A program made the translations under genes and the position numbers. The notes under the pieces were generated by a model. The model made no database searches and was not told where the DNA came from. It saw only the letters and a list, made by a program, of their open reading frames with translations. A stretch of DNA of 64,000 bases, from assembly GCA_029866005.1 (NCBI GenBank), contig JARXAE010000004.1, positions 1 to 64,000 on the forward strand, read 5' to 3'. Source of the stretch: Fimbriimonas sp. (lineage in GTDB: Bacteria; Armatimonadota; Fimbriimonadia; Fimbriimonadales; Fimbriimonadaceae). Position 1 is the first letter of the stretch; each line of letters starts with the position of its first letter. Shown here piece after piece: positions 23,897-43,998 of the stretch.

Positions 23897-25879
23897 TTAC
23901 GCTTCTGCAAACGCCCTGCGATCAAACACCAGATCACTCGCCAGTTTCCAAACTTCCGATTCGATCTTGTTCTCTGGCAAAATCTTGGAAGCGTGGACAA
24001 TTGCCGAGGTGAGGCCCGCCTCTCGAGCAAAGTGGAGGAAGGTGGAGTTAAGGACTTGGCGCAGCGCTGGTTTGAGACCGAAGCTGACGTTGCTGACACC
24101 AAGCACGGTATTGACGTTCGGATAGTGCTTCTTGAGCATCGCAATCGCATCAATGGTCGCAATCGCCGAGGTCCGGAACTCTTCGTCGCCAGAGCCAAGG
24201 GTAAAGGTTAGGGTATCGATAAAGAGGTCATGGTCGGGCAGACCAAATTCGCGAGTCCGGGCAATCAGACGCTCGGCGACCGCATATTTTTCGTCGGCCG
24301 ATTTCGCCATTCCTTTCTCGTCAATGGTCAGACCAACCACGGCAGCGCCGTACTTCCGGCAGAGCGCGAGGACCTTGCGCGTGCGCTCCTCGCCATCCTC
24401 AAAGTTGATTGAGTTCACAATTGGCTTTCCAGCCACCATTTGTAGTGCGGCTTCGATGACGTTGACTTCCGTCGAGTCGATCATCAAGGGAACCTGAATG
24501 TGCCGGTTGTAGTAACTGAGGAGAGTCCGCATATCCTTCTCTTCGTTTCTACCGACATAAGCAGTGCAGACATCGAGAACGTGGGAACCTTCGCCTTCAA
24601 GTTCACGAGCCAGCTCGGTCAGTCCCTCCCAGTTCTCAGCGGCAAGCATTTCGCGGAATGCCTTTGAGCCGTTGGCATTCGTCTTCTCGCCGATGATGAG
24701 GAAGCTAGTGTCTTGATCATACGGCTGGAATTGGTAGAGGGACGAGATCCCGACCAGTGAGTTGGGAGTGGGGAGTTCTGGGGCAGGTGTGGAGAAGTCA
24801 AAACCGGGATAGGTGTTGCGAACTTTGATCCAGTGAGCGTCTGCGGTGTGCTTGTGTCCACCGACCGCGTCGGAGATAGCTTTAATGTGCGCAGGAGTCG
24901 TTCCACAGCAGCCCCCACACAGGGCAACGCCGTACTTTTCGACGAACTCTAAGTGGTGCTGACCGAGTTCCTCTGGTGAGAGCTTGTAAACGGCTTGTCC
25001 CTTCTCCATGATCGGCAGTCCGGCATTCGGCTGAACGGCAATTGGTCGAGTGGAGTTTTGGCCCAGGAATCGAACGTGCTGTGCCATCTCCACCGGTCCG
25101 GTTGCACAGTTGAGTCCGAATGCCACCACTGATGGGAAAGCCTCAATCATATTGAGGGCAGCGCCTATCTCTGAGCCGAGGAGCATCGTGCCAGTCTGCT
25201 CCATCGTGACTTGAACAAAAATTGGTAGCCTCGTTTGGCAGGCTGCAAGCGCTCTTTCGGCGGCTACAATGCTCGCCTTCACCATGAGCAAATCTTGGGT
25301 CGTCTCGACGAGGAGTGCATCTGCTCCCCCCTCAATCATCCCTCGAAAGCCATCGAAGAAGCTCGTTTCGACATCTTGGAAAGATGCTTGACCAAGTGAG
25401 ACAAGCCGGGTTCCTGGTCCGATTCCGCCAACGACGAATCGGGGCTTGTTTGAAGTAGAGAAAAGATCCGCCTGCTCGCGAGCAATCTGGGCTGAGGCGA
25501 GCGCTAAATCATAAACAAGTTCAGAAATCTCATATTCGCCCAGTACGTAACTAATTGTTCCGAAAGCGTTTGTCTCGATCAGATCAGCCCCGGCCTCGAG
25601 ATAAGAAGCGTGAACTCCAGCGACGACCTCGGGTCGAGTTAAACACAGAAGTTCATTGCAACCGTCAAGAGAAATTCCGTTGAGGCGCATTGCCACGGCC
25701 TGAAGGGAAGCAGAATCTCCGACATCAGTTCTTTCCACTTCGCGCCGGAGCGAAAAAGGGGAGGGGCTTCGGAGGACAAAGTCGTCCGGCGTTAATCCAG
25801 CCGCTTGCAACTGCGTACCCATCGCACCGTCGTAAACAAGAACGCGATCAGCAAGGCAGTCAAGCAGAAGAGACTTCAT
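23897..25879 (-). CDS. metH: methionine synthase MetH, homocysteine and folate-binding half
   Basis: 660 residues, corresponding to about the first half of cobalamin-dependent MetH. The homocysteine-binding barrel starts YDGAMGTQLQ and has the zinc cysteines GLNCATGP and GGCCGTTPAHI (about 235 and 327). The second barrel binds methyltetrahydrofolate, with GEKTNANGSKAFREML (about 397), DVCTAYVGRNEE and SNVSFGLKPALR (about 608). The protein ends at VWKLASDLVFDRRAFAEA, the linker where the cap and cobalamin domains of full-length MetH begin. Those domains, and the reactivation domain, are missing and no remnant follows; pepX begins 40 nt later. Split MetH is known in some lineages; the partner must be elsewhere. 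The linker around residue 365-375 is encoded by a G/T-rich simple repeat. Confidence 0.9.
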   Translation of the reverse strand: MKSLLLDCLADRVLVYDGAMGTQLQAAGLTPDDFVLRSPSPFSLRREVERTDVGDSASLQAVAMRLNGISLDGCNELLCLTRPEVVAGVHASYLEAGADLIETNAFGTISYVLGEYEISELVYDLALASAQIAREQADLFSTSNKPRFVVGGIGPGTRLVSLGQASFQDVETSFFDGFRGMIEGGADALLVETTQDLLMVKASIVAAERALAACQTRLPIFVQVTMEQTGTMLLGSEIGAALNMIEAFPSVVAFGLNCATGPVEMAQHVRFLGQNSTRPIAVQPNAGLPIMEKGQAVYKLSPEELGQHHLEFVEKYGVALCGGCCGTTPAHIKAISDAVGGHKHTADAHWIKVRNTYPGFDFSTPAPELPTPNSLVGISSLYQFQPYDQDTSFLIIGEKTNANGSKAFREMLAAENWEGLTELARELEGEGSHVLDVCTAYVGRNEEKDMRTLLSYYNRHIQVPLMIDSTEVNVIEAALQMVAGKPIVNSINFEDGEERTRKVLALCRKYGAAVVGLTIDEKGMAKSADEKYAVAERLIARTREFGLPDHDLFIDTLTFTLGSGDEEFRTSAIATIDAIAMLKKHYPNVNTVLGVSNVSFGLKPALRQVLNSTFLHFAREAGLTSAIVHASKILPENKIESEVWKLASDLVFDRRAFAEA

Positions 25880-25960
25880 GTCTATCTATTGTGGCGGATT
25901 TGGGTTGGATTTCTGGGGAAGCTACTAGGTTCATGTTGACCTGCTTCGGGAATGAATTGT

Positions 25961-26083
25961 ATGGAACCTGATATGCCTACGATTGTGACCCTCCTTGCAA
26001 CCTTAGCCATCATCTCGGCAGGCGTTTGGGCGGTCGCGATTTTGGTTAATCAGCACATGCGTGAGCGAAAACACCTCGTTTAG
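25961..26083 (+). CDS. 40-residue single-pass membrane peptide
   Basis: Short frame from ATG 25961 (or 25973) to TAG 26081-26083: MEPDMPTIVTLLATLAIISAG..., one hydrophobic segment (about 8-28) then a basic tail (MRERKHLV). It is too short for common gene callers. Its end is followed after 52 nt by a strong terminator, which supports transcription. The role is unknown. Confidence 0.35.
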   Translation: MEPDMPTIVTLLATLAIISAGVWAVAILVNQHMRERKHLV

Positions 26084-26135
26084 ATGTGTTCTGTGGGAAA
26101 AACTCCCACATCTACGAAAATCAAGCTCGAAAATC

Positions 26136-26174
26136 GGCACCAATGAACCTGCATTGGTGCCTGTGGCTGTTTTT
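26136..26174 (+). terminator. rho-independent terminator upstream of mraZ
   Basis: GGCACCAATG and CATTGGTGCC form a perfect 10-bp stem (26136-26145 and 26152-26161) with a 6-nt loop, followed by TGTGGCTG and five T (26170-26174). It isolates the dcw promoter from upstream transcription. A second hairpin, TGTGGGA/TCCCACA at 26092-26110, precedes it. The rest of 26175-26312 is AT-rich and shows no gene. Confidence 0.7.
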
Positions 26175-26312
26175 CATGACTCAAGAATTTGATCTGAAAA
26201 ATGATTTAAGTATATATACGTCTACATAAAAATCAAACATAAGAGTAGACAAATACCCCAATAAAGACTTAACTCATTATCTGCAAAAAACTTTTGAAAA
26301 AAAGAGTTTAAA

Positions 26313-26346
26313 AGTGGTTGTAAAGTGGGAGAGTAGTGTCTATACT
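26313..26346 (+). promoter_or_regulatory. mraZ (dcw) promoter with MraZ-type operator repeats
   Basis: TTGTAA (26318-26323), 17 nt, TATACT (26341-26346) form a sigma70-like promoter. AGTG repeats start at 26313, 26324 and 26335, each 11 bp apart: AGTGGTTGTAA, AGTGGGAGAGT, AGTGTCTATAC. In E. coli and others MraZ represses its own operon by binding direct TGGGN repeats spaced about 10 bp. The repeats here overlap -35 and the spacer, matching autorepression. The binding assignment is inference from the known mechanism. Confidence 0.65.
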
Positions 26347-26364
26347 ATTCACACCAAAGCCAAG

Positions 26365-26449
26365 GATTGGCGAAGGGGCAGGAAAGGCTGGGGTGCCAAT
26401 CTGAAGAATTAGGGCCGCGATGCACGGATGCAGAGCGGCCCTTCCTAAT
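26365..26449 (+). other. structured mraZ leader with two hairpins
   Basis: The predicted leader is about 130 nt. GATTGGC (26365-26371) pairs with GCCAATC (26395-26401), and GGGCCGC (26412-26418) pairs with GCGGCCC (26435-26441), with an outer ATTAG/CTAAT extension. There is no T run, so it is not a simple terminator. It may stabilise the mRNA or control its start; there is no known riboswitch match. Confidence 0.4.
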
Positions 26450-26481
26450 CCCCAAAAATACTCGATGTGAAAGGAGATCTG

Positions 26482-33819: not shown

Positions 33820-35129
33820 TGTTAGAAGGCCAATCTATCGCGGTGTTTGGTCTCGGACGCAGCGGGCTCGCTGTCGCCCGAGCCGCGATCTCGCGGGGTG
33901 CAACAGTTACCGTTTACGACGAAACCCCGCGCGAGAAGCTCGGCAAGCCCGAGCTAGCTGAAGAAGCCGGGGGGCTTGGAGCGAGGCTCGTGCTGGGTCA
34001 CTCGTTTCCTATGAGTGCCTTTGAGGAGACGATCGTCGTCAACCCCGCCATCGACCACCGTCACCCCGCCCTCCAATCTCAAAAGGAGAAAGTGATCGGT
34101 GAGGTTGAGTTCGCCTACCGAATCTCGAAAGCCCCGATCGTCGCCATTACGGGCACTAACGGAAAGAGCACCACGACGGCAATGACCGTCGTCGCCCTCC
34201 GAGCGGCCGGGATCGACGCTATCCTCTGTGGAAACATCTTCGGCTCTGGCCTCCCCGAAATGCCCCTCACCGACGCCGCCGATCAATCAACCCCCGATCA
34301 AGTCCTAGTCGCCGAAATCTCTTCCTTCCAACTCGACTGGGTTCGCGATTTCGCCCCCATCGCCGCGGCGATCACGACGATCACCCCCGATCACCTCGAC
34401 CGATACGACTCGTTCGAAGACTACGCCGCAACGAAGCTCAGGATTTTTCAGAATGCGGCGGTCAAGATTGATGCCCGTGAACAGGGTTACCTCATCCTTG
34501 AAGCTACAACCGGATTCAAAGCAATCGGTGAGCACAACGTGCGCAACGCAGGCACTGCGGCGGCTCTCACGGTTGCGACTTTAGAGTGGCTGCTGTCTCA
34601 GGGGTCTTCTTCGCAGGCGATTCAGGCGTACCGAAGGGAACGAGAAAGCAAAGGAAATCAAGCAACGCTCCCCAACAACGCCCTCGAAGCCCTCCGCGAG
34701 TTTCCCGGTCTCGCCCACCGCATGCAGTTTGTGGCCGAAGTCCAAGGCGTCAGATACATCAACAACTCGATGTGCACAAACCCAGCCGCCGTCATCGCAT
34801 CCATCGAAAGCTTGTTGACAGAACCGGTTCATGTCTTAGTAGGTGGGGTGAACAAAGACCTCCCGTTCGGCCCGCTGAGGGACTATCTCCAAGCCAAAAC
34901 TCACAAGGTCTATCTGTTTGGACGCGACGCAACCCAAATCAACGCCGAACTCTCGCAAAATTGGCAGGTTTACGATACAATGAAGCAGGCGTTTGACGCC
35001 GCCGCGAAGGAAGCCAAGGATGGTGAGATCGTGATGCTTGCACCGGGATGTGCAAGCATGGATCAATTCCGAGATTTCCGCCATCGAGGCGACGTCTTTT
35101 GCCAGTTAGTCAAGGATTTGACGCAATGA
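33819..35129 (+). CDS. murD: UDP-MurNAc-L-Ala:D-Glu ligase MurD
   Basis: 436 residues from ATG 33819; the longer open frame upstream runs inside mraY. MurD adds D-Glu to UDP-MurNAc-L-Ala. N-terminal Rossmann motif VFGLGRSGLAVARAA, ATP site AITGTNGKSTTTAM (about 109-122), EISSFQLDWVRDF, TPDHLDRYDSFEDY and the C-terminal NNSMCTNPAAVIASI and APGCASMDQFRDFRHRG are present. It overlaps ftsW by 4 nt (ATGA). Confidence 0.95.
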   Translation: MLEGQSIAVFGLGRSGLAVARAAISRGATVTVYDETPREKLGKPELAEEAGGLGARLVLGHSFPMSAFEETIVVNPAIDHRHPALQSQKEKVIGEVEFAYRISKAPIVAITGTNGKSTTTAMTVVALRAAGIDAILCGNIFGSGLPEMPLTDAADQSTPDQVLVAEISSFQLDWVRDFAPIAAAITTITPDHLDRYDSFEDYAATKLRIFQNAAVKIDAREQGYLILEATTGFKAIGEHNVRNAGTAAALTVATLEWLLSQGSSSQAIQAYRRERESKGNQATLPNNALEALREFPGLAHRMQFVAEVQGVRYINNSMCTNPAAVIASIESLLTEPVHVLVGGVNKDLPFGPLRDYLQAKTHKVYLFGRDATQINAELSQNWQVYDTMKQAFDAAAKEAKDGEIVMLAPGCASMDQFRDFRHRGDVFCQLVKDLTQ

Positions 35130-36355
35130 GAGCAAGGACAGCGAAGCGAGGCGATACCACCCTTTTCTGGTTGGCGATGACGATTAGCGTCATCGGCTTG
35201 TTCTATATCTTGGATGCCGGCTACGCCCAAAGCATGCGCATCGGTGCAGGCATACTCCCGAAGCCCTTCATCCAGCAGATTTTTGCCCTTATTGCATCGG
35301 TTGGAGCTTTCTTCTTGTTGAGAAATGTTTCCCCAGAAAACTGGAAGCGCTTTGCGCCCTGGGGAATTGGGATTGCATTCTTCCTGCTGTTCCTTGTGGA
35401 AAAGATGGGGACAACCACAAACGAGGCAACTAGGTGGCTGCGAATTGGTCCTGTTCAGATCCAGCCGGCTGAGTTCATGAAGGTTGCGGCGGTTCTTTAT
35501 CTGGCGACGGTCCTGGCAAACAAGAAAGATTGGAACGAGACCTGGGAACAGCGCAAGAAAGAGAAAACAATTGAGGCGGCGGTGATTATTCCGAAGCTGA
35601 AGAGGCTCGTTCCCGGTTTCATCATCCTGTTCGCGGTCGCGATGATCGAACATGAAAAGGATATTGGAACTGCGTGTGTCGTTTTGGTAACGGGCATGGC
35701 GATGTTCTTCTCGGCACCCATGAGCCTGAAATCGAAGATCATTGTCCCTGCCCTGCTCGGGGTTTGTCTGCTTGGGGCGGTCGCCAAAGAGCCGTACCGA
35801 GTATCGCGGTTTATGGTGCACCCAAATCGCTGGCAACGCGAACATATCAACGATGAGAGCTTTCAGACCATTCACTCCGAACTCGCGATGGCGAGCGGTG
35901 GAGTCGTGGGAACCGGAATTGGAACTGGCCGTGCGAAGCACCTCATTCCGGCTACGACAAGCGACTTCATCATGGCGACCATCGCGGAGGAGTGTGGAGT
36001 CTGGGGTCCGTGGCTATGTCTCGGAATCGTTGGAGCGATCAGCATGCGTCTGCTGCAACTCGCCCAGAAAGCCGAGGATCGGTTCAAGAAGCTGTTCATG
36101 AGCGGTGTGGCATGGTGGATCGGGATTCAAGCTTGTACGAACATGCTCATGGCAAACGCCACGATTCCAGCAATCGGAATTCCATTCCCATTCGTCAGTG
36201 CAGGGGGTTCAAGCTTGCTCGCGCTTTGGATTGCCGTTGCAATCAGCGATCGACTCAGTTGGTCAACCGCCGCAGAAACGGCAGAAAAGGAGGTCGCCAA
36301 TGCGCGTCGTCGTAACCGGCGGGGGAACCGGCGGACACGTCTATCCGGCGCTTGA
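35126..36355 (+). CDS. ftsW: peptidoglycan glycosyltransferase FtsW
   Basis: 409 residues, about ten membrane segments, SEDS family. FtsW polymerises septal glycan from lipid II with FtsI. Typical motifs: RWLRIGPVQIQPAEFMKVA (about 108-126), ATTSDFIMATIAEECGVWGP (about 275-294, containing the conserved SDFIFA-like loop) and GIPFPFVSAGGSSLLALW near the end (about 350). ATG 35126 is the first sensible start and overlaps murD. Its last 19 codons overlap the start of murG by 56 nt, the longest overlap in the cluster. Confidence 0.94.
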   Translation: MRARTAKRGDTTLFWLAMTISVIGLFYILDAGYAQSMRIGAGILPKPFIQQIFALIASVGAFFLLRNVSPENWKRFAPWGIGIAFFLLFLVEKMGTTTNEATRWLRIGPVQIQPAEFMKVAAVLYLATVLANKKDWNETWEQRKKEKTIEAAVIIPKLKRLVPGFIILFAVAMIEHEKDIGTACVVLVTGMAMFFSAPMSLKSKIIVPALLGVCLLGAVAKEPYRVSRFMVHPNRWQREHINDESFQTIHSELAMASGGVVGTGIGTGRAKHLIPATTSDFIMATIAEECGVWGPWLCLGIVGAISMRLLQLAQKAEDRFKKLFMSGVAWWIGIQACTNMLMANATIPAIGIPFPFVSAGGSSLLALWIAVAISDRLSWSTAAETAEKEVANARRRNRRGNRRTRLSGA

Positions 36356-37364
36356 GATCTGCCGCATCGCCCAGGAGGAAGCCGATCTTCTTTACATCGG
36401 TTCTCTGAGGGGGATGGAGATGGGTGCTTGCGCGGATAGAGGAATCATCGTCCTTGGACTCGATTCTGGACCCGTCTACAACCCACTTTCGTTGGGCGGA
36501 GCGAAGGCGTTGGTGAAGCTTTGGCTCGCCTCCTTCGAGGCAAAAAAGAAGCTACTCCAGTACAAACCGGATGTAGTTTTCTCTACCGGTGGCTATTCCA
36601 GCGCCCCGGTGATGAAGGCGGCTAAGGAACTTGGGATTCCACTGGCCATTCATGCGTGCGATACGATCCCTGGTCGTTCACTGCGGATGTTTGCAAAGCA
36701 GGCAAAGGTTGTAACGAGCACTTTTCGCGCGACAGCCAGGGCGCTTCCGGGATGTAATGTTGTCCGCACCGGACACCCGATTCGGCAAGAACTTCGCGAA
36801 GCAGTGCAGCATCGGCGTCCTGAAGAGAAGTTTGTTCTCGTTCTCGGTGGATCAGGGGGTGCCAAGTTCCTCAATGAGGTCATGCCGCTCGTGAGTCCGC
36901 AGCTCGAGGGGGCCAAGATTCTCCATTCGGCGGGTAAGGGTCAGTATGACCAGTTCAAGCATCTCGTTGATGGGGTTCCAAACTACGACATGCGTCCCTA
37001 TCTTGAATCTGATGCTCTGGCCGATGCGTATCGACGAGCTTCGTTGATCATCGCTCGGAGTGGTAGCGGCATCAGCGAGTACGCGATGGCAAAAATTCCT
37101 TCGATATTAGTCCCGTTGCCGTCGTCAGCCGATGATCATCAGTTCCATAATGCAAAGGAGTTCGAATCTTTTGGTGGAGCATCGGTGCTTACCCAGGACG
37201 TGCGCGAAGGCGAGATTCAAGCAACCCCGGAGTCAATCGCGAGAGAGATTCGGGAGTGGTTTGCCGACGAGACTGGGCATGCAGGGCGAGGTCTTTCCAA
37301 TTGGGACACTCCTGGCGCCACAATTCAGATTTGGAATGAGATCAAGCGCGCGGCGACGAAATGA
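36300..37364 (+). CDS. murG: lipid II-forming GlcNAc transferase MurG
   Basis: 354 residues. MurG adds GlcNAc to lipid I. The N-terminal VTGGGTGGHVYPALEICR is the G-loop of GT28, VVFSTGGYSSAPVMKAAKELGIP and HACDTIPGRSLRMFAKQA follow, and the donor-binding C-terminal region has LVLGGSGGAKFLNEVMP, RSGSGISEYAMAKIPSILVPLP and DDHQFHNAKEFE. ATG 36300 has AAAAGGAGG at good spacing, so the 56-nt overlap with ftsW is real and not a miscalled start. Confidence 0.95.
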   Translation: MRVVVTGGGTGGHVYPALEICRIAQEEADLLYIGSLRGMEMGACADRGIIVLGLDSGPVYNPLSLGGAKALVKLWLASFEAKKKLLQYKPDVVFSTGGYSSAPVMKAAKELGIPLAIHACDTIPGRSLRMFAKQAKVVTSTFRATARALPGCNVVRTGHPIRQELREAVQHRRPEEKFVLVLGGSGGAKFLNEVMPLVSPQLEGAKILHSAGKGQYDQFKHLVDGVPNYDMRPYLESDALADAYRRASLIIARSGSGISEYAMAKIPSILVPLPSSADDHQFHNAKEFESFGGASVLTQDVREGEIQATPESIAREIREWFADETGHAGRGLSNWDTPGATIQIWNEIKRAATK

Positions 37365-39715
37365 GAAAAAGAGCAGAAATTGAGGCTGAATTTGCACCTA
37401 CTGATGCGCTCAATGCATGTCGCTCGTTCTACATGGTTGGTATCGGGGGGGCTGGTATGTCAGCGCTGGCCAGAATGCTTCAGCATCGAAAATTCGGGGT
37501 TGCAGGCTCGGATGTAGTAGCTTCCTTGGAAGTTGAACGGTTGCGAAACGAAGAGATTGAGGTCCACGTCGGGCATTCTGCTACGGCCCTTCGTGAATTC
37601 CTCGGTTCCCACCAGGAGTGCGCGCTGATCGTGACCGACGCCGTTGATCTCAACAAGTCGCCCGAAATTGCGGAGGCACGAAAGAAAGGACTACCAGTTG
37701 TTCGCCGCTCACAAGCTCTCGGCTGGCTACTCAGACCCTACAAGGTGATCGCAGTAACCGGAACTCACGGAAAAACCACGACGACCGGACTCCTCGGAGC
37801 TGGGTTGATCGCCGCTGGACTCGATCCTCTGGTCGTCGTCGGAGCCGCCATTCTTGACTGGGAAGGGCCAATCAGGGAAGGGAACGGTGAGTACGCTGTG
37901 GTCGAAGCTTGCGAGGCTTACGAGGCCTATGCAGACATCAATCCTCATATCGTACTTCTGACTAACCTTGAGCCCGACCACCTGGATTATCACGGCACCT
38001 ACGAAAACCTTCGCGACAGCATGGTGCGGTTTGTTTCAAAGATTCCCCCGAGTGGTGGACTGGTCTACTGTGCCGACGACCGGGGAGCATCCGAGATTGC
38101 AGAGCTTACCGATGTGAAATGTCTTGCCTACGGCCTCTCAGAGGCTTGGCTCCAACAGACATTTAACAAGTTTGGCTTTGGAATGAATGCTAGCGAGAGC
38201 GATGCCGGCAAACTCCTCAAACTTAACCTCCCCGGTGACCACAACCGCATGAATGCAACCGGGGCACTGGCCGCCGCTTCGTTGCTTAACGACGAGGATA
38301 GCGTTGTCGAACTCGATGCAGTTGAGATGGGGATTGCTCGTTTCGGCGGAGCGGAGCGCAGATTGCAAGTCTTGCTGGAAGGTCCAATTACGGTGATCGA
38401 CGACTACGCGCACCACCCCAGCGAGATCGTCGCGTCGATCCAAGGCGTGAGGCAACGCTATCCTGGGCGACGACTTGTCGTCGTCTATCAGCCGCACATG
38501 TATTCAAGAACTCTTGAGCACATCTCAGATTTTCCACCTGCGCTCAATACCGCCGATTTCGTCGTTTTGACCGACATCTATCCCGCTCGCGAAGCTCCCA
38601 TCCCTGGAGTTTCAAGTGCGAGAATTGCCGAAGGTATCACTAAACCGATGCGCTACGTTCCGTCGCGCCACTTGTTGCCACGGCAAGTGAAGCAAATTTT
38701 GAAGCCTGGCGATGTCGTCGTCGGAATGGGTGCCGGAACGATCAGCGAATTTGCTCCTGACTTGATCCGAGAGATTGAAAGAGACGTGAACCCAACCAAA
38801 AAGGTTGTCGTGATCTACGGCGGCGATAGCTCGGAAAGGGAAGTTTCCATCCTTTCTGGCAACGCGATTGCGAAGGCGTTGAACAACGCCGGTTTTGATG
38901 CCGAACTGATCGATGTTACTGAATGCTTGCTGCGGAAAGGGAACGTCATTGACTTCACGGGTTCAATTCGGCCCGATGTTGCCTTTCTCGCCGTTCATGG
39001 AACCCATGCCGAGGACGGCGCTATTCAAGGGTTCTTAGAGTTGATGCACGTTCCCTACACAGGTTCAGGAATCTACGCTAGCGCGGTTGCGATGGATAAG
39101 AACCGAACAAAGCAACTGCTCAGTGCCGTTGGAATTCGGTGTCCCAAAGGGCAGTTTATCAAAACTGAGTCGGAACCAATTTCGATATTGGCTCCAGCCA
39201 TTGTAAAGCCGAATCGAGAAGGATCCACTGTTGGACTCACCTTCGCAGAGACCCATGACCAGATTTCCGAGGGCATTCGGATGGCACTCCAGTATCCAGG
39301 GGGGTGCCTTGTTGAGGAGTGGGTAAAGGGCATGGAAATCTCGGTCCCCGTCCTTTGTGGAGAAGCTTTACCTCCTGTTGAAATCTGCCCGGCAAAAGGA
39401 AGCTACGACTTTGCCAATAAATATACGCCTGGGGCGACGGAGGAAATTGTCCCTGCCCGACTCCCGGAGCATCTCCTAGCTGAGGCACAGCGAGTTGCAC
39501 TACTTGCCCACGAAACCCTCGGTTGTGAGGGTGCTACGCGCACAGACATGATCGTTCGGGGTGAGGAAATATTTGTCCTTGAGGTCAATACTTTGCCTGG
39601 AATGACCGCAACATCGCTTCTGCCAAACTCAGCCCGCGCGGCTGGAATGTCCTTCGAACAGCTTTGTACTCGCATCGTGGAGGATGCGCTGAATCGCCAT
39701 GCGACGACGTCGTAA
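37361..39715 (+). CDS. murC-ddl: MurC-Ddl fusion: UDP-MurNAc:L-Ala ligase and D-Ala-D-Ala ligase
   Basis: 784 residues in one frame. Residues 1 to about 475 are MurC: FYMVGIGGAGMSALARM (about 23-39), VTGTHGKTTTTGLLG (about 130), NLEPDHLDYHGTYENL and IDDYAHHPSEI. Residues from about 480 are a full Ddl (ATP-grasp): VVIYGGDSSEREVSILSG, AVHGTHAEDGAIQGF, PYTGSGIYASAVAMDKN, the omega-loop SYDFANKYTPG (Tyr/Lys of the D-Ala-D-Ala type, not D-Ala-D-Lac) and VLEVNTLPGMTATSLLP. There is no stop or frameshift in the junction. MurC-Ddl fusions are known in Chlamydiae. murB, which normally lies between murC and ddl, is absent from this cluster. Confidence 0.95.
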   Translation: MRKRAEIEAEFAPTDALNACRSFYMVGIGGAGMSALARMLQHRKFGVAGSDVVASLEVERLRNEEIEVHVGHSATALREFLGSHQECALIVTDAVDLNKSPEIAEARKKGLPVVRRSQALGWLLRPYKVIAVTGTHGKTTTTGLLGAGLIAAGLDPLVVVGAAILDWEGPIREGNGEYAVVEACEAYEAYADINPHIVLLTNLEPDHLDYHGTYENLRDSMVRFVSKIPPSGGLVYCADDRGASEIAELTDVKCLAYGLSEAWLQQTFNKFGFGMNASESDAGKLLKLNLPGDHNRMNATGALAAASLLNDEDSVVELDAVEMGIARFGGAERRLQVLLEGPITVIDDYAHHPSEIVASIQGVRQRYPGRRLVVVYQPHMYSRTLEHISDFPPALNTADFVVLTDIYPAREAPIPGVSSARIAEGITKPMRYVPSRHLLPRQVKQILKPGDVVVGMGAGTISEFAPDLIREIERDVNPTKKVVVIYGGDSSEREVSILSGNAIAKALNNAGFDAELIDVTECLLRKGNVIDFTGSIRPDVAFLAVHGTHAEDGAIQGFLELMHVPYTGSGIYASAVAMDKNRTKQLLSAVGIRCPKGQFIKTESEPISILAPAIVKPNREGSTVGLTFAETHDQISEGIRMALQYPGGCLVEEWVKGMEISVPVLCGEALPPVEICPAKGSYDFANKYTPGATEEIVPARLPEHLLAEAQRVALLAHETLGCEGATRTDMIVRGEEIFVLEVNTLPGMTATSLLPNSARAAGMSFEQLCTRIVEDALNRHATTS

Positions 39716-41145: not shown

Positions 41146-41549
41146 TTCTCGTCCCCATCATCGCCCTTCTCCTCGGTGCCATTTTGGCACTGGGGCTAAA
41201 GGTGCGTGTTGGAGACAGCATGGCTCAGTACCTAGCCGTCGCCTGCCTCGCCGGGCTGGATACCGTGCTTGGAGGAATGCGATCTGCGTACGAAAGCAAG
41301 TTCCAAACCGACGTGTTTCTAAGCGGATTCTTTGCAAATGTCCTCATCGCCTTCTTTATTGCCTGGCTTGGCGATCAGATTGGAATCAACCTCTACATGG
41401 TGGTCGCTCTGGTGATGGGAATGCGGATATTTACCAATTTAAGCCTCCTTCGACGCTACCTATTGGTGCGTGCCACGGACTGGATCGCAAAGCGGAAGAA
41501 GGAGCGTGAAAAACAACTCGAGCAAACCATGGAAGGTGTCACTGAATGA
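41142..41549 (+). CDS. sbp: small basic protein Sbp (DUF1290)
   Basis: 135 residues from GTG 41142 (GTGA overlap with the preceding stop). Three membrane segments, with the family core YLAVACLAGLDTVLGGMRSAYESKF and DVFLSGFFANVLIAFFIAWLGDQIG. The basic C-terminal tail (about 112-135, AKRKKEREKQLEQ) is longer than in B. subtilis Sbp. Its role in division is unproven. It lies between DUF881 and ftsA, the arrangement of Gram-positive dcw clusters. Confidence 0.88.
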   Translation: MILVPIIALLLGAILALGLKVRVGDSMAQYLAVACLAGLDTVLGGMRSAYESKFQTDVFLSGFFANVLIAFFIAWLGDQIGINLYMVVALVMGMRIFTNLSLLRRYLLVRATDWIAKRKKEREKQLEQTMEGVTE

Positions 41550-42757
41550 AAGAATGCGTCGTTATTGATCTTGGGGGCTCAAAGACGGTAGCCCTAGCGG
41601 CAAAGTCCTCTGGAGACGGGAAGCTAGATATTACTGGCATGATCCGTGTGGACAGCCGGGGGATGAAGAAGGGTGGGATTGTCGACCTTGATGGCGTTGC
41701 CCGGACAGTGGACACGGCGCTTCGGCATTTGGCAAACGACTTGGGACGAGAGTCGATTGACAACGCAGTTGTGATCATTTCCGGGGCACAGGTCGAGGGT
41801 GTCACGGTTCAAGGTTTCAAGCCAATCATTCCGAAGAATCGAACCATCACTTCACAAGACGTGATGGAAGTCGTGAACCACTCTAAGGCCGGGTTCTTGC
41901 CATCCGAGCGGCTCCAAGTTCAGACCGTCCCGCGAGGATTCCGAGTTGACGACGGCAAGATGATCATGGATCCCGTTGGGCTTCCTGGTTCAAAGCTGGA
42001 AGTCAATAGCTACCTGATCACTGGTCAGGGCGCTCACGTGCAGTTGTTCGAGAGAGCGCTTACGCTGAATCACCGCAAGGTTGATCAGTTTATCTTTGGT
42101 CCTTTGGCTTCTGGTCTGGGAATCCTGACCGCTGATGAGATCACCAAGGGTGCGATTTGTATCGACATCGGTGCAACCAAGACCGACTTGGCTATCTTCG
42201 CAGGTGGCTCTTTGGCATTTGCTTGCAGCATCCCGGCGGGTGGAGATAATGTCACGAGCGACCTCAGTCAACTCTTGAACGCGTCTTTAGAAGAATCCGA
42301 GCGGCTGAAGATTCAGGAAGGACAGGCGCTCGCCGCGCCCATCTCGGATCGAGACGCGATCGAAGTCCAACAGCAGGGTCAGCCGAACCCGCGGCCGATG
42401 CAGCGCAGAGTACTCTGCGAAATCATCGAGAGCCGAATGCGCGAAATTGGGCGCATCGCCAAAGTTCATGTCGAAAAAGCAGGTTTTCTGAAGTCTGTTC
42501 CAGGCGGCGTTGTACTGACCGGCGGTGGAGCGAAGTTGAAAGGCATCGAAGAACTGTTTGGTCAAATCTTCCCCGAGCTTCCGGTCCGAGCCGCTGAACC
42601 CAGACTTTTGGGCGGAAAAGATGCCGTCGGCATGGCAGCTTCGCTCGGCGCCGCACAGTTCATTTTGCAAGCAAATGACGACCTCAGCACGATTAGTGGT
42701 GGTGAAAGCTGGCAGGACAAAGTGCGCGGCTTTTGGTCGATTATCAGCGGTAAGTAG
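41546..42757 (+). CDS. ftsA: cell division actin-like protein FtsA
   Basis: 403 residues. FtsA tethers FtsZ to the membrane. ATP-binding motifs: [16 protein letters not shown] (3-18), [16 protein letters not shown] (about 206-221) and [17 protein letters not shown] (about 316-332). The 1C domain lies between. The C-terminal [14 protein letters not shown] is the amphipathic membrane-targeting helix. ATG 41546 overlaps sbp by 4 nt. Three DnaA boxes follow the stop. Confidence 0.93.
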
Positions 42758-42760
42758 GAC

Positions 42761-42790
42761 TTATCCACACTTATCAACACCTTATCCACA
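42761..42790 (+). promoter_or_regulatory. three tandem DnaA boxes between ftsA and ftsZ
   Basis: TTATCCACA (42761-42769), TTATCAACA (42771-42779) and TTATCCACA (42782-42790) lie in direct orientation, 10 and 11 nt apart, so they face the same side of the helix. The first and third are the perfect consensus DnaA box; the second has one change. They fill the 74-nt ftsA-ftsZ gap together with TAAACT (42803-42808), a possible -10 box for ftsZ. DnaA is known to regulate ftsZ in some bacteria (Caulobacter). Confidence 0.8.
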
Positions 42791-42831
42791 CAAGTGTAGT
42801 GATAAACTTGCTAGCTCAGGGGGTTTTTTAC

Positions 42832-43998
42832 GTGGCGAATACAGCGGTAATCAAGGTAGTAGGCGTCGGTGGAGGCGGTAGTAACGCCGTTCAGCGCATG
42901 ATCGAAAGCGGAATCAAAGGCGTCGAGTTCATCGCCATGAACACCGACGTCCAAGTTCTCGATTTATCTCCTGCCACCAAAAAGGTACAGCTTGGCGTCA
43001 ACCTCACCCGTGGTCTTGGAGCCGGAGGCGATCCTGAGGTCGGTCGCAACGCCGCCGAAGAGAGCAAACCTGAGATCCGAAAAGTCCTCGAAGGCGCGGA
43101 TATGGTGTTCATCACCGCTGGTATGGGTGGAGGAACCGGAACCGGGGCCGCCCAAGTTGTCGCAGATGTTGCTCAGGAAATGGGCGCTCTCACTGTTGCT
43201 GTTGTGACTCGCCCGTTCAGATTTGAGGGCCCCAAGCGTGAACGACTTGCGGATGAAGGCGTGCTCGGTCTCACCGGAAAGGTTGATACGATCATCACAA
43301 TTCCGAATGAGAAGCTTTTGGGAGTCGTCGAGAAGAAGACCACATTCCATGATGCATTCCGAGTTGCTGACGACGTGCTTCGTCAAGGAGTTCAGGGGAT
43401 CTCCGACATCATCACCATTCCCGGTCAGATCAACGTCGACTTTGCTGACGTTAGAACGATCATGAAGGATGCCGGCCCGGCGATCATGGGAATTGGTTAC
43501 GGTGTCGGTGATAACCGCGCTGTTCAAGCCGCGCAAGCCGCAACATCTTCTGCACTGCTTGAGCAACGGATTGACGGAGCGAAAGGCGTGCTTGTGAACA
43601 TCACCAGCGGCGACGACCTCACCCTTGCCGAGACAAGTGAAGCGATGATTTACATCCAGTCGCTTTGCGATCAAGATGAAGTCAACATCATTTTTGGCTC
43701 GGTCATCGATCCCTCAATGGAAGGCACAGTTAGAATCTCGGTGCTTGCAACTGGATTCGATCCAATCTCGGCAGTTTCAAGTCGAGCAAGAATCGAATCT
43801 TCGGCTCAACCAGCCGTCGCTGTCCGACAGGCAGTTAATCCGGTCATTCCGTCGGTCACGAGTGCCGATGTTGTTGCAGAAGCCCGAGCTAAGATGTTCG
43901 AGAAGAAGATTGAAGAGACTCCCGACATGATTGAAGAGTCGGATCTGGATATTCCGGCATTCATTCGCGAGCATCGGAATCGGCAGCAGGGTAACTGA
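42832..43998 (+). CDS. ftsZ: cell division GTPase FtsZ
   Basis: 388 residues from GTG 42832, which has AGGGGG 9 nt upstream and precedes the usual [19 protein letters not shown] start; a GTG 11 codons upstream would add [11 protein letters not shown], which is not conserved. The tubulin signature GGGTGTGAA (about 97-105) and the T7 loop region [19 protein letters not shown] are present. The C-terminal peptide [12 protein letters not shown] is the FtsA/SepF-binding tail. It is preceded by DnaA boxes. Its stop directly abuts the stop of convergent miaB. Confidence 0.97.

Follow-up and report, generated by a model that had tools for sequence, protein, structure and literature searches.

The question raised by this locus is whether the DnaA boxes found between ftsA and ftsZ of a Fimbriimonas genome can tie the expression of ftsZ to the initiation of replication. 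Coupling of replication to division by DnaA through ftsZ is an old question, to which the boxes of E. coli gave a negative and the promoter of Caulobacter a positive answer. The DNA analysed here, called the window in the following, consists of bases 1-64000 of contig C23 (the genome comprises 2.81 Mb in 38 contigs), and an earlier note on it had proposed direct action of DnaA at the ftsZ promoter.

In the window ftsA, the upstream dcw-cluster gene as judged from gene order and from reading its translation, occupies positions 41546-42757 of the plus strand. The ftsZ gene that follows on the same strand (ftsZ1, 42832-43998, 388 amino acids) most likely starts with the GTG codon at 42832; the mechanically assigned open reading frame starts at 42799, 5' of this codon. 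Direct reading places a Shine-Dalgarno-like AGGGGG at 42818-42823 (plus strand), 8 nt 5' of the GTG, and with this start the ftsA-ftsZ gap is 74 nt long. The gap holds three DnaA boxes arranged head-to-tail on the plus strand: box 1 (TTATCCACA, perfect, 42761-42769), box 2 (TTATCAACA, one mismatch, 42771-42779) and box 3 (TTATCCACA, perfect, 42782-42790). Boxes 1 and 3 match TTWTNCACA, and box 2 is off by one base. The letters thus bear out what had been claimed, three tandem boxes of the same orientation with start-to-start distances of 10 and 11 nt, two of them perfect. The boxes end 33 nt (upstream slot, whose register is matched in relatives), 23 nt (middle slot) and 12 nt 5' of a predicted -10 hexamer. 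This hexamer, TAAACT at 42803-42808, had also been pointed out before; it is preceded by TGA, giving a predicted extended -10 (TGA-TAAACT, 42800-42808, plus strand) with the top -10 score 3' of the boxes, and the 12-nt gap between box 3 and the hexamer recurs in five relatives (G001, G018, G003, G010 and G002).

Is such an arrangement likely to have arisen by chance? TTATCCACA occurs twice in the window, both times in the ftsA-ftsZ gap, compared with a mean of 0.17 copies in shuffled windows, of which 0/100 reached two. Genome-wide there are 15 copies versus 9 of the reversed pattern, thus the 9-mer shows no great overall enrichment. The tandem pattern TTATCMACA-N0-3-TTATCMACA has only two, overlapping, matches in the 2.81-Mb genome, both of which are this array (reversed control 0). 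When 20 congeneric genomes (about 80.8 Mb) were scanned with TTDTCCMCA-N12-TTDTCCMCA, a pattern picked after inspecting the upstream regions, 7 places were found in 7 genomes, all 7 upstream of ftsZ1, and none with the reversed control. Since this pattern was found solely in front of ftsZ, the array is not a product of chance; the earlier estimate that a chance match was very unlikely is upheld by the window shuffles, by the uniqueness of the tandem in the genome and by the restriction of the N12 pattern to ftsZ. To remove the choice of spacing, the same 20 genomes were scanned with the open pattern TTDTCCMCA-N0-20-TTDTCCMCA. The 30 rows obtained correspond to 26 distinct places, 8 at ftsZ1, 8 at the second ftsZ gene (ftsZ2) and 10 elsewhere, compared with 1 for the reversed control. 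Sixteen of the 26 places precede an ftsZ by no more than about 250 nt; counted as 300 nt apiece, the two ftsZ upstream regions amount to about 12 kb of the 80.8 Mb scanned.

Some of the other places are worth recording. Half of the ten non-ftsZ places are TTGTCCCCACTTGTCCCCA, four in G018 (C1:1427528, C1:1874612, C2:253172 and C2:333420) and one in G000 (C20:5262). The sole other match to the open pattern in the window is TTGTCCCCATCTTTTCCACA at 35395-35414, on the minus strand within a long plus-strand open reading frame (35048-36355). Pairs of TTWTCCACA 119-121 nt apart recur in G003 (C14:13744/13863, C41:171498/171617, C47:26348/26469 and C56:296432/296551) and in G002 (C1:48729/48849), as if they were within a longer repeat.

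A control by DnaA presupposes a DnaA that reads these boxes. A single match to the family of the DnaA C-terminal domain was found in the genome, on contig C32, which agrees with the earlier remark that no dnaA-dnaN pair is near as far as dnaA is concerned, the only one found being on another contig. Residues 19-452 of the 460-residue protein align with DnaA chains of solved structure. Its domain IV has RDHTSIMH where the best match, 8btg, which we take to be the DnaA of Bacillus subtilis, has RDHTTVIH, and on the evidence of this alignment the box-reading domain IV is intact. In the sister family f2 there are origin-like clusters of about seven to eleven TTWTCCACA, one beside dnaA and one beside a RecF/SMC-like gene. 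Because of these oriC-like clusters and the domain IV match, TTATCCACA is very probably the DnaA box of this order.

Conservation was followed in a set of 61 genomes. Upstream regions of ftsZ1 were taken from 55 genomes, the window's own included, and 54 remained after dropping L212 (G007), in which the contig ends within the gene; the ftsZ1 of G007 is split over contigs, and the piece bearing the start is on G007:C155. The upstream regions of G048, G053, G058, G059 and G060 were left out, and G057 had no ftsZ match. Three boxes with no more than one mismatch each and with starts 10 and 11 nt apart are present in G000, G001, G018, G003 and G009, and the same three slots, one of them weaker, in G010 (two mismatches), G002 (three) and G006 (three). 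Hence 8 of the 19 ftsZ1 upstream regions of the genus retain the array, its register and its distance from the predicted -10, three of them with one weak slot. Seven more of the 19 keep a single box (that of G005 has two mismatches), and four, G008, G011, G016 and G019, have no usable box; among these is the probable type species, since G008 is probably F. ginsengisoli. With the limit set at one mismatch, G005 is added to these and 5 of 19 congeners are boxless at ftsZ1. The register is held while the inter-box bases differ and the single boxes vary among TTATCCACA, TTTTCCACA, TTGTCCACA and TTATCCCCA.

Counted without regard to register, TTWTCCACA occurs within 300 nt upstream of ftsZ1 in 13 of the 19 members of the genus (reversed control 0), in one of the 17 remaining members of the family and in 0 of 18 members of other families, where ftsZ1 and ftsZ2 were separated by score only. 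TTATCCACA alone is present in 11/19 of the genus, compared with a maximum of 2 for 200 scrambles of the 9-mer. Conservation among relatives, which the earlier note had named as a check on its proposal, therefore holds for near relatives, and it does not hold for the four congeners without a usable box or for the other families. In bacteria at large, TTWTCCACA was found upstream of ftsZ in 3 of 78 named-record loci and the reversed control in 2 of 78 (taken from the best 80 loci, two with too short an upstream being left out; one of the three positives, L065, is probably the same genome as G014), so that boxes upstream of ftsZ are not a general bacterial rule.

The relation of the boxes to the predicted promoter was analysed with a -10 matrix of E. 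coli frequencies, run 3' of the last box. The highest-scoring hexamer lay 11-12 nt past the last box in eight of the 15 genomes that have a usable box and 22-23 nt past it in the other seven, which places all 15 at one of these distances, compared with a mean of 2.0 and a maximum of 7/15 in 2000 shuffle trials (distances of 11-13 and 21-23 nt accepted); it must be noted that the accepted distances and the weak boxes (two mismatches in G005, three in G006) were listed after seeing the sequences. In a stricter test, restricted to TTWTCCACA and with the near-duplicates G001, G018 and G015 dropped (G004 and G005 have no strict box), 10/10 distances fell in a single helical phase, compared with a null mean of 4.8, and this was reached in 0/5000 trials. 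As the genomes are related, the counts among congeners are not independent. The middle slot, 22-23 nt from the -10, is the one slot common to both classes of relatives; it has at most one mismatch in 12/15 genomes, two in G010 and G005 and three in G002. The slot 11-12 nt from the -10 is occupied in no genome outside the window's clade, and within the clade only weakly in G006; in an FtsZ tree the eight genomes possessing it correspond to one label change, with weak support (68/89). Of the eight genomes whose third box is 11-12 nt away, seven have TGN before the hexamer; none of the other seven does. Assuming a 17-nt spacer, box 3 covers four of the six -35 positions, and no -35 is recognisable. 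A -35 place occupied by a box, together with a predicted extended -10, fits regulation via a bound protein.

Two ftsZ matches were found in each of the 37 family members searched (some broken over contigs), and upstream regions of the second gene, ftsZ2, were taken from 45 genomes. In the window's genome ftsZ2 is on C33, divergent from peptide deformylase and formyltransferase genes; ahead of the start of the match it carries TTATCCACA at a distance of 164 nt and TTATTCACA at 189 nt. TTWTCCACA lies within 300 nt upstream of ftsZ2 in 13/20 genomes of the genus, 11/17 of the rest of the family and 1/8 of other families (reversed control 0 in each), and TTATCCACA alone in 10/20, 2/17 and 0/8 (200 scrambles gave at most 1 per set). 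Its scarcity in the rest of the family (2/17) means that the signal there depends on TTTTCCACA. In 9 of the 11 box-bearing ftsZ2 upstream regions of the rest of the family the box is a minus-strand one that faces the divergent gene, thus some of these boxes may serve that gene. The pattern TTDTCCMCA-N10-TTDTCCMCA, like N12 picked after inspection, has 6 places in the 20 genomes (G001, G002, G003, G009, G010 and G018), 6/6 upstream of ftsZ2, and none with the reversed control. A -10 search behind the ftsZ2 boxes gave no clear hexamer. These arrays suggest that ftsZ2 is probably under the same DnaA control through a separately arranged array. In several relatives a hairpin-like stretch of the GACGC..GCGTC type was seen by eye 3' of the ftsZ2 boxes (L144 3630-3920 and ftsZ2 upstream regions of relatives). 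Rfam had no match in the two ftsZ2 loci (L144, L151) and the one ftsZ1 locus (L148) tried, and over the window it found one tRNA and nothing else.

On balance we consider it likely that the ftsA-ftsZ gap is a DnaA-controlled ftsZ promoter, at which DnaA activates from the middle slot. What speaks for this is the boxes and their register, the distance to the predicted -10, the concentration of tandem boxes at ftsZ genes and a DnaA with an intact domain IV. From these we infer that DnaA would bind the three head-to-tail boxes on one helix face, at sites starting about -54, -44 and -33 relative to a transcription start predicted near 42815, in a promoter that would have an extended -10, no recognisable -35 and the third box in the -35 place. 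DnaA at the middle slot would aid the binding of RNA polymerase in the style of a class II activator; the middle slot is preferred as the activation site because it is common to both classes and lies beside the -35 place. At high DnaA-ATP the third box could then be filled and the promoter damped, as described at nrdAB in E. coli, and ftsZ output would then track the level or the nucleotide state of DnaA and thereby the replication cycle. The conserved array at ftsZ suggests that the start of replication also controls the making of the division ring. Counting against this reading are the four congeners without a usable box at ftsZ1, the finding of ftsZ1 boxes in no more than 1/17 of the remaining family, the poor middle slots of G002, G010 and G005, the lack of a clear -10 behind the ftsZ2 boxes and the mostly minus-strand ftsZ2 boxes of the remaining family. 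As to the earlier proposal of direct DnaA action at the ftsZ promoter, the kept register, the -10 distance and the boxes at ftsZ2 argue for it, and its reach does not extend to all congeners.

The sign of the regulation could be the opposite. DnaA-ATP on box 3 and its neighbours would then block RNA polymerase, and ftsZ would be released after initiation as DnaA-ATP drops. In the window and its clade box 3 does overlap the -35 place, and a box on the -35 alone would point to repression as readily as to activation; there is also precedent in E. coli, where DnaA is reported to repress its own gene and, when DnaA-ATP is high, nrdAB (PMC8203912). However, the third slot is empty in 7/15 box-bearing genomes and weak in G006, the slot common to both classes (weak in G002) is the middle one by the -35 place, and the absence of a -35 suits a helped promoter. 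We find repression rather unlikely and activation somewhat likelier. A dose-dependent mixed response like that of nrdAB would unite the two.

It is also conceivable that the boxes are kept by common descent without function, or are used by another regulator of the same site. In keeping with this, some members of the genus have lost the boxes or never acquired them, and the boxes upstream of ftsZ in E. coli provide a negative precedent (PMC8203912). This seems improbable to us, as against it stand a register held despite changing inter-box bases and box variants, and a second ftsZ that carries arrays too.

The datA and DARS sites are defined by a specific box layout, by IHF and Fis sites and by exchange or hydrolysis of the nucleotide bound to DnaA, and no promoter spacing is known for them. 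In the reading which the earlier note offered as an alternative, the array would be a site of this kind, located in the gap by coincidence, which would adjust free DnaA by titration or reactivation and would not act on ftsZ. Its three boxes are clustered, indeed they form the densest box cluster (score 8) in the 84 kb of its contig examined, and the dcw cluster may be near the origin. Nevertheless, three boxes would be few for the purpose, a fixed distance to the predicted -10 would not be needed, and 16/26 tandem pairs sit at one or the other ftsZ gene; this explanation accounts for the second ftsZ no better than for the -10 spacing, both of which it leaves unexplained, and we hold it to be quite improbable. 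In E. coli datA, DARS1 and DARS2 are described as non-coding DnaA-binding regions outside oriC (PMC4585315).

The position of the origin was considered in its own right. GC skew in the window switches sign at about 24 kb (minimum at 23974); in 4-kb steps along the contig the skew is negative up to 24 kb and then positive to 84 kb, with no change at 42.8 kb. The third-position skew of plus- and minus-strand frames is -0.21 and -0.18 on the left and -0.01 and +0.26 on the right, the open reading frames being chosen mechanically and uncurated, so that some are probably not genes. In G008, a single contig of 5,231,762 bases, some 47 kb separate dnaA from ftsZ1 when counted across the start of the record. 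GC skew, sampled in 20 stretches each of G008 and G026, was too weak for an origin to be located. The paper on Gsoil 348 discusses the small number of its DnaA boxes and an origin predicted from the skew at 5.13 Mb; the term ftsZ is absent from its main text (PMC4072686). Near dnaA, the search for a box cluster gave just one one-mismatch box in 19 kb. The array has three boxes, versus about seven to eleven TTWTCCACA in the oriC-like clusters of the sister family. An origin at ftsZ is unlikely because the skew is unchanged at 42.8 kb and a denser box cluster lies on the RecF side on C20, and the candidate was rejected on the skew and on a 74-nt gap without an AT-rich unwinding stretch; the earlier suggestion of an origin within the dcw cluster finds no support at this spot, though the cluster is near a possible origin and an origin within some 20 kb is possible. 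That the array is part of an origin, or that the origin lies within the dcw cluster, is thus barely credible, even if the third-position skew flips sign within the window on both strands and the ftsZ1 of G008, at 5.18 Mb, is near the skew origin of Gsoil 348 (PMC4072686), since the switch is at about 24 kb and the denser box cluster is upstream of the RecF-like gene.

DnaA boxes at ftsZ are already known in Caulobacter and in E. coli, and what is new is the layout of this array; no earlier report of it appeared in the titles and abstract openings of the listed papers on DnaA boxes and ftsZ, DnaA and cell division, Fimbriimonas ftsZ, DnaA of Armatimonads or Armatimonadota division. In Caulobacter crescentus two DnaA boxes are found in the ftsZ promoter, with a reported role of DnaA as direct activator (PMC3193534, PMC8203912). 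The present array is similar in having its boxes at the ftsZ promoter, but it belongs to another phylum, has three head-to-tail boxes at 10 and 11 nt with a fixed distance to the predicted -10, and is accompanied by an array at a second ftsZ; moreover, binding and activation are reported for Caulobacter, while the Armatimonadota array is known from its sequence. E. coli has three boxes upstream of ftsZ, situated inside coding genes and described as without action on ftsZ transcription (PMC8203912, PMC10532879), and PMC10532879 treats their role as an open question. These resemble ours in number and in dcw-cluster location, but ours are in the gap itself, beside a predicted -10. High-affinity boxes in the E. 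coli nrdAB promoter allow DnaA both to activate and to repress (PMC8203912); the boxes there are likewise in a promoter region, and nrdAB, a different gene, may serve as a model of dose-dependence. In Bacillus subtilis DnaA binds the ftsL promoter (PMC8203912), so it is again found in front of a division gene, albeit a different one.

We propose, tentatively and as a possibility that we would not yet call probable, that in some of the Fimbriimonas-type Armatimonadota both ftsZ paralogs are driven directly by DnaA through two differently built, helically phased arrays, forming a dedicated transcription circuit from replication to division whose evolutionary origin would be independent of that of the alphaproteobacterial one. 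In this distant phylum the register of the boxes and their spacing from a predicted -10 are conserved at the promoter level, and boxes occur at two ftsZ genes. The relatives with boxes and those naturally boxless at ftsZ1 form a set of promoters in which box number, helical phase and the sign of regulation can be tested.

A few observations concern other parts of the window and of the related genomes. At 23900-26470 the skew switch is followed by an AT-rich gap upstream of mraZ (25.9-26.47 kb), a possible origin region; among 16 mraW upstream regions, that of G000 has no box with one mismatch or less in this gap; G018 has three boxes inside or close to it, G008 and G017 have two each, G031 has one and the others none. 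A possible DnaA-trio-like unwinding element 3' of box 3, considered by eye, was rejected, as it is not conserved in relatives. At 37361-39715 a frame of 784 amino acids reads by eye as MurC followed by D-Ala-D-Ala ligase, a putative fusion. The RecF-like gene on C20 has upstream of it a dense cluster of DnaA-box-like sequences (L007 1330-1700, G000:C20 about 208500-208720), which scores 10 versus 8 for the ftsZ array in a comparison covering two contig stretches, 84 kb of C23 and 80 kb of C20; it is the densest in the 80 kb scored, shows no skew switch and may be an origin candidate or a DnaA target. Finally, inverted DnaA-box pairs 5-6 nt apart, lying in gaps of about 1.0 and 1.3 kb, are origin candidates in G003 and G002 (L305 4750-5123 and L306 4504-5353).
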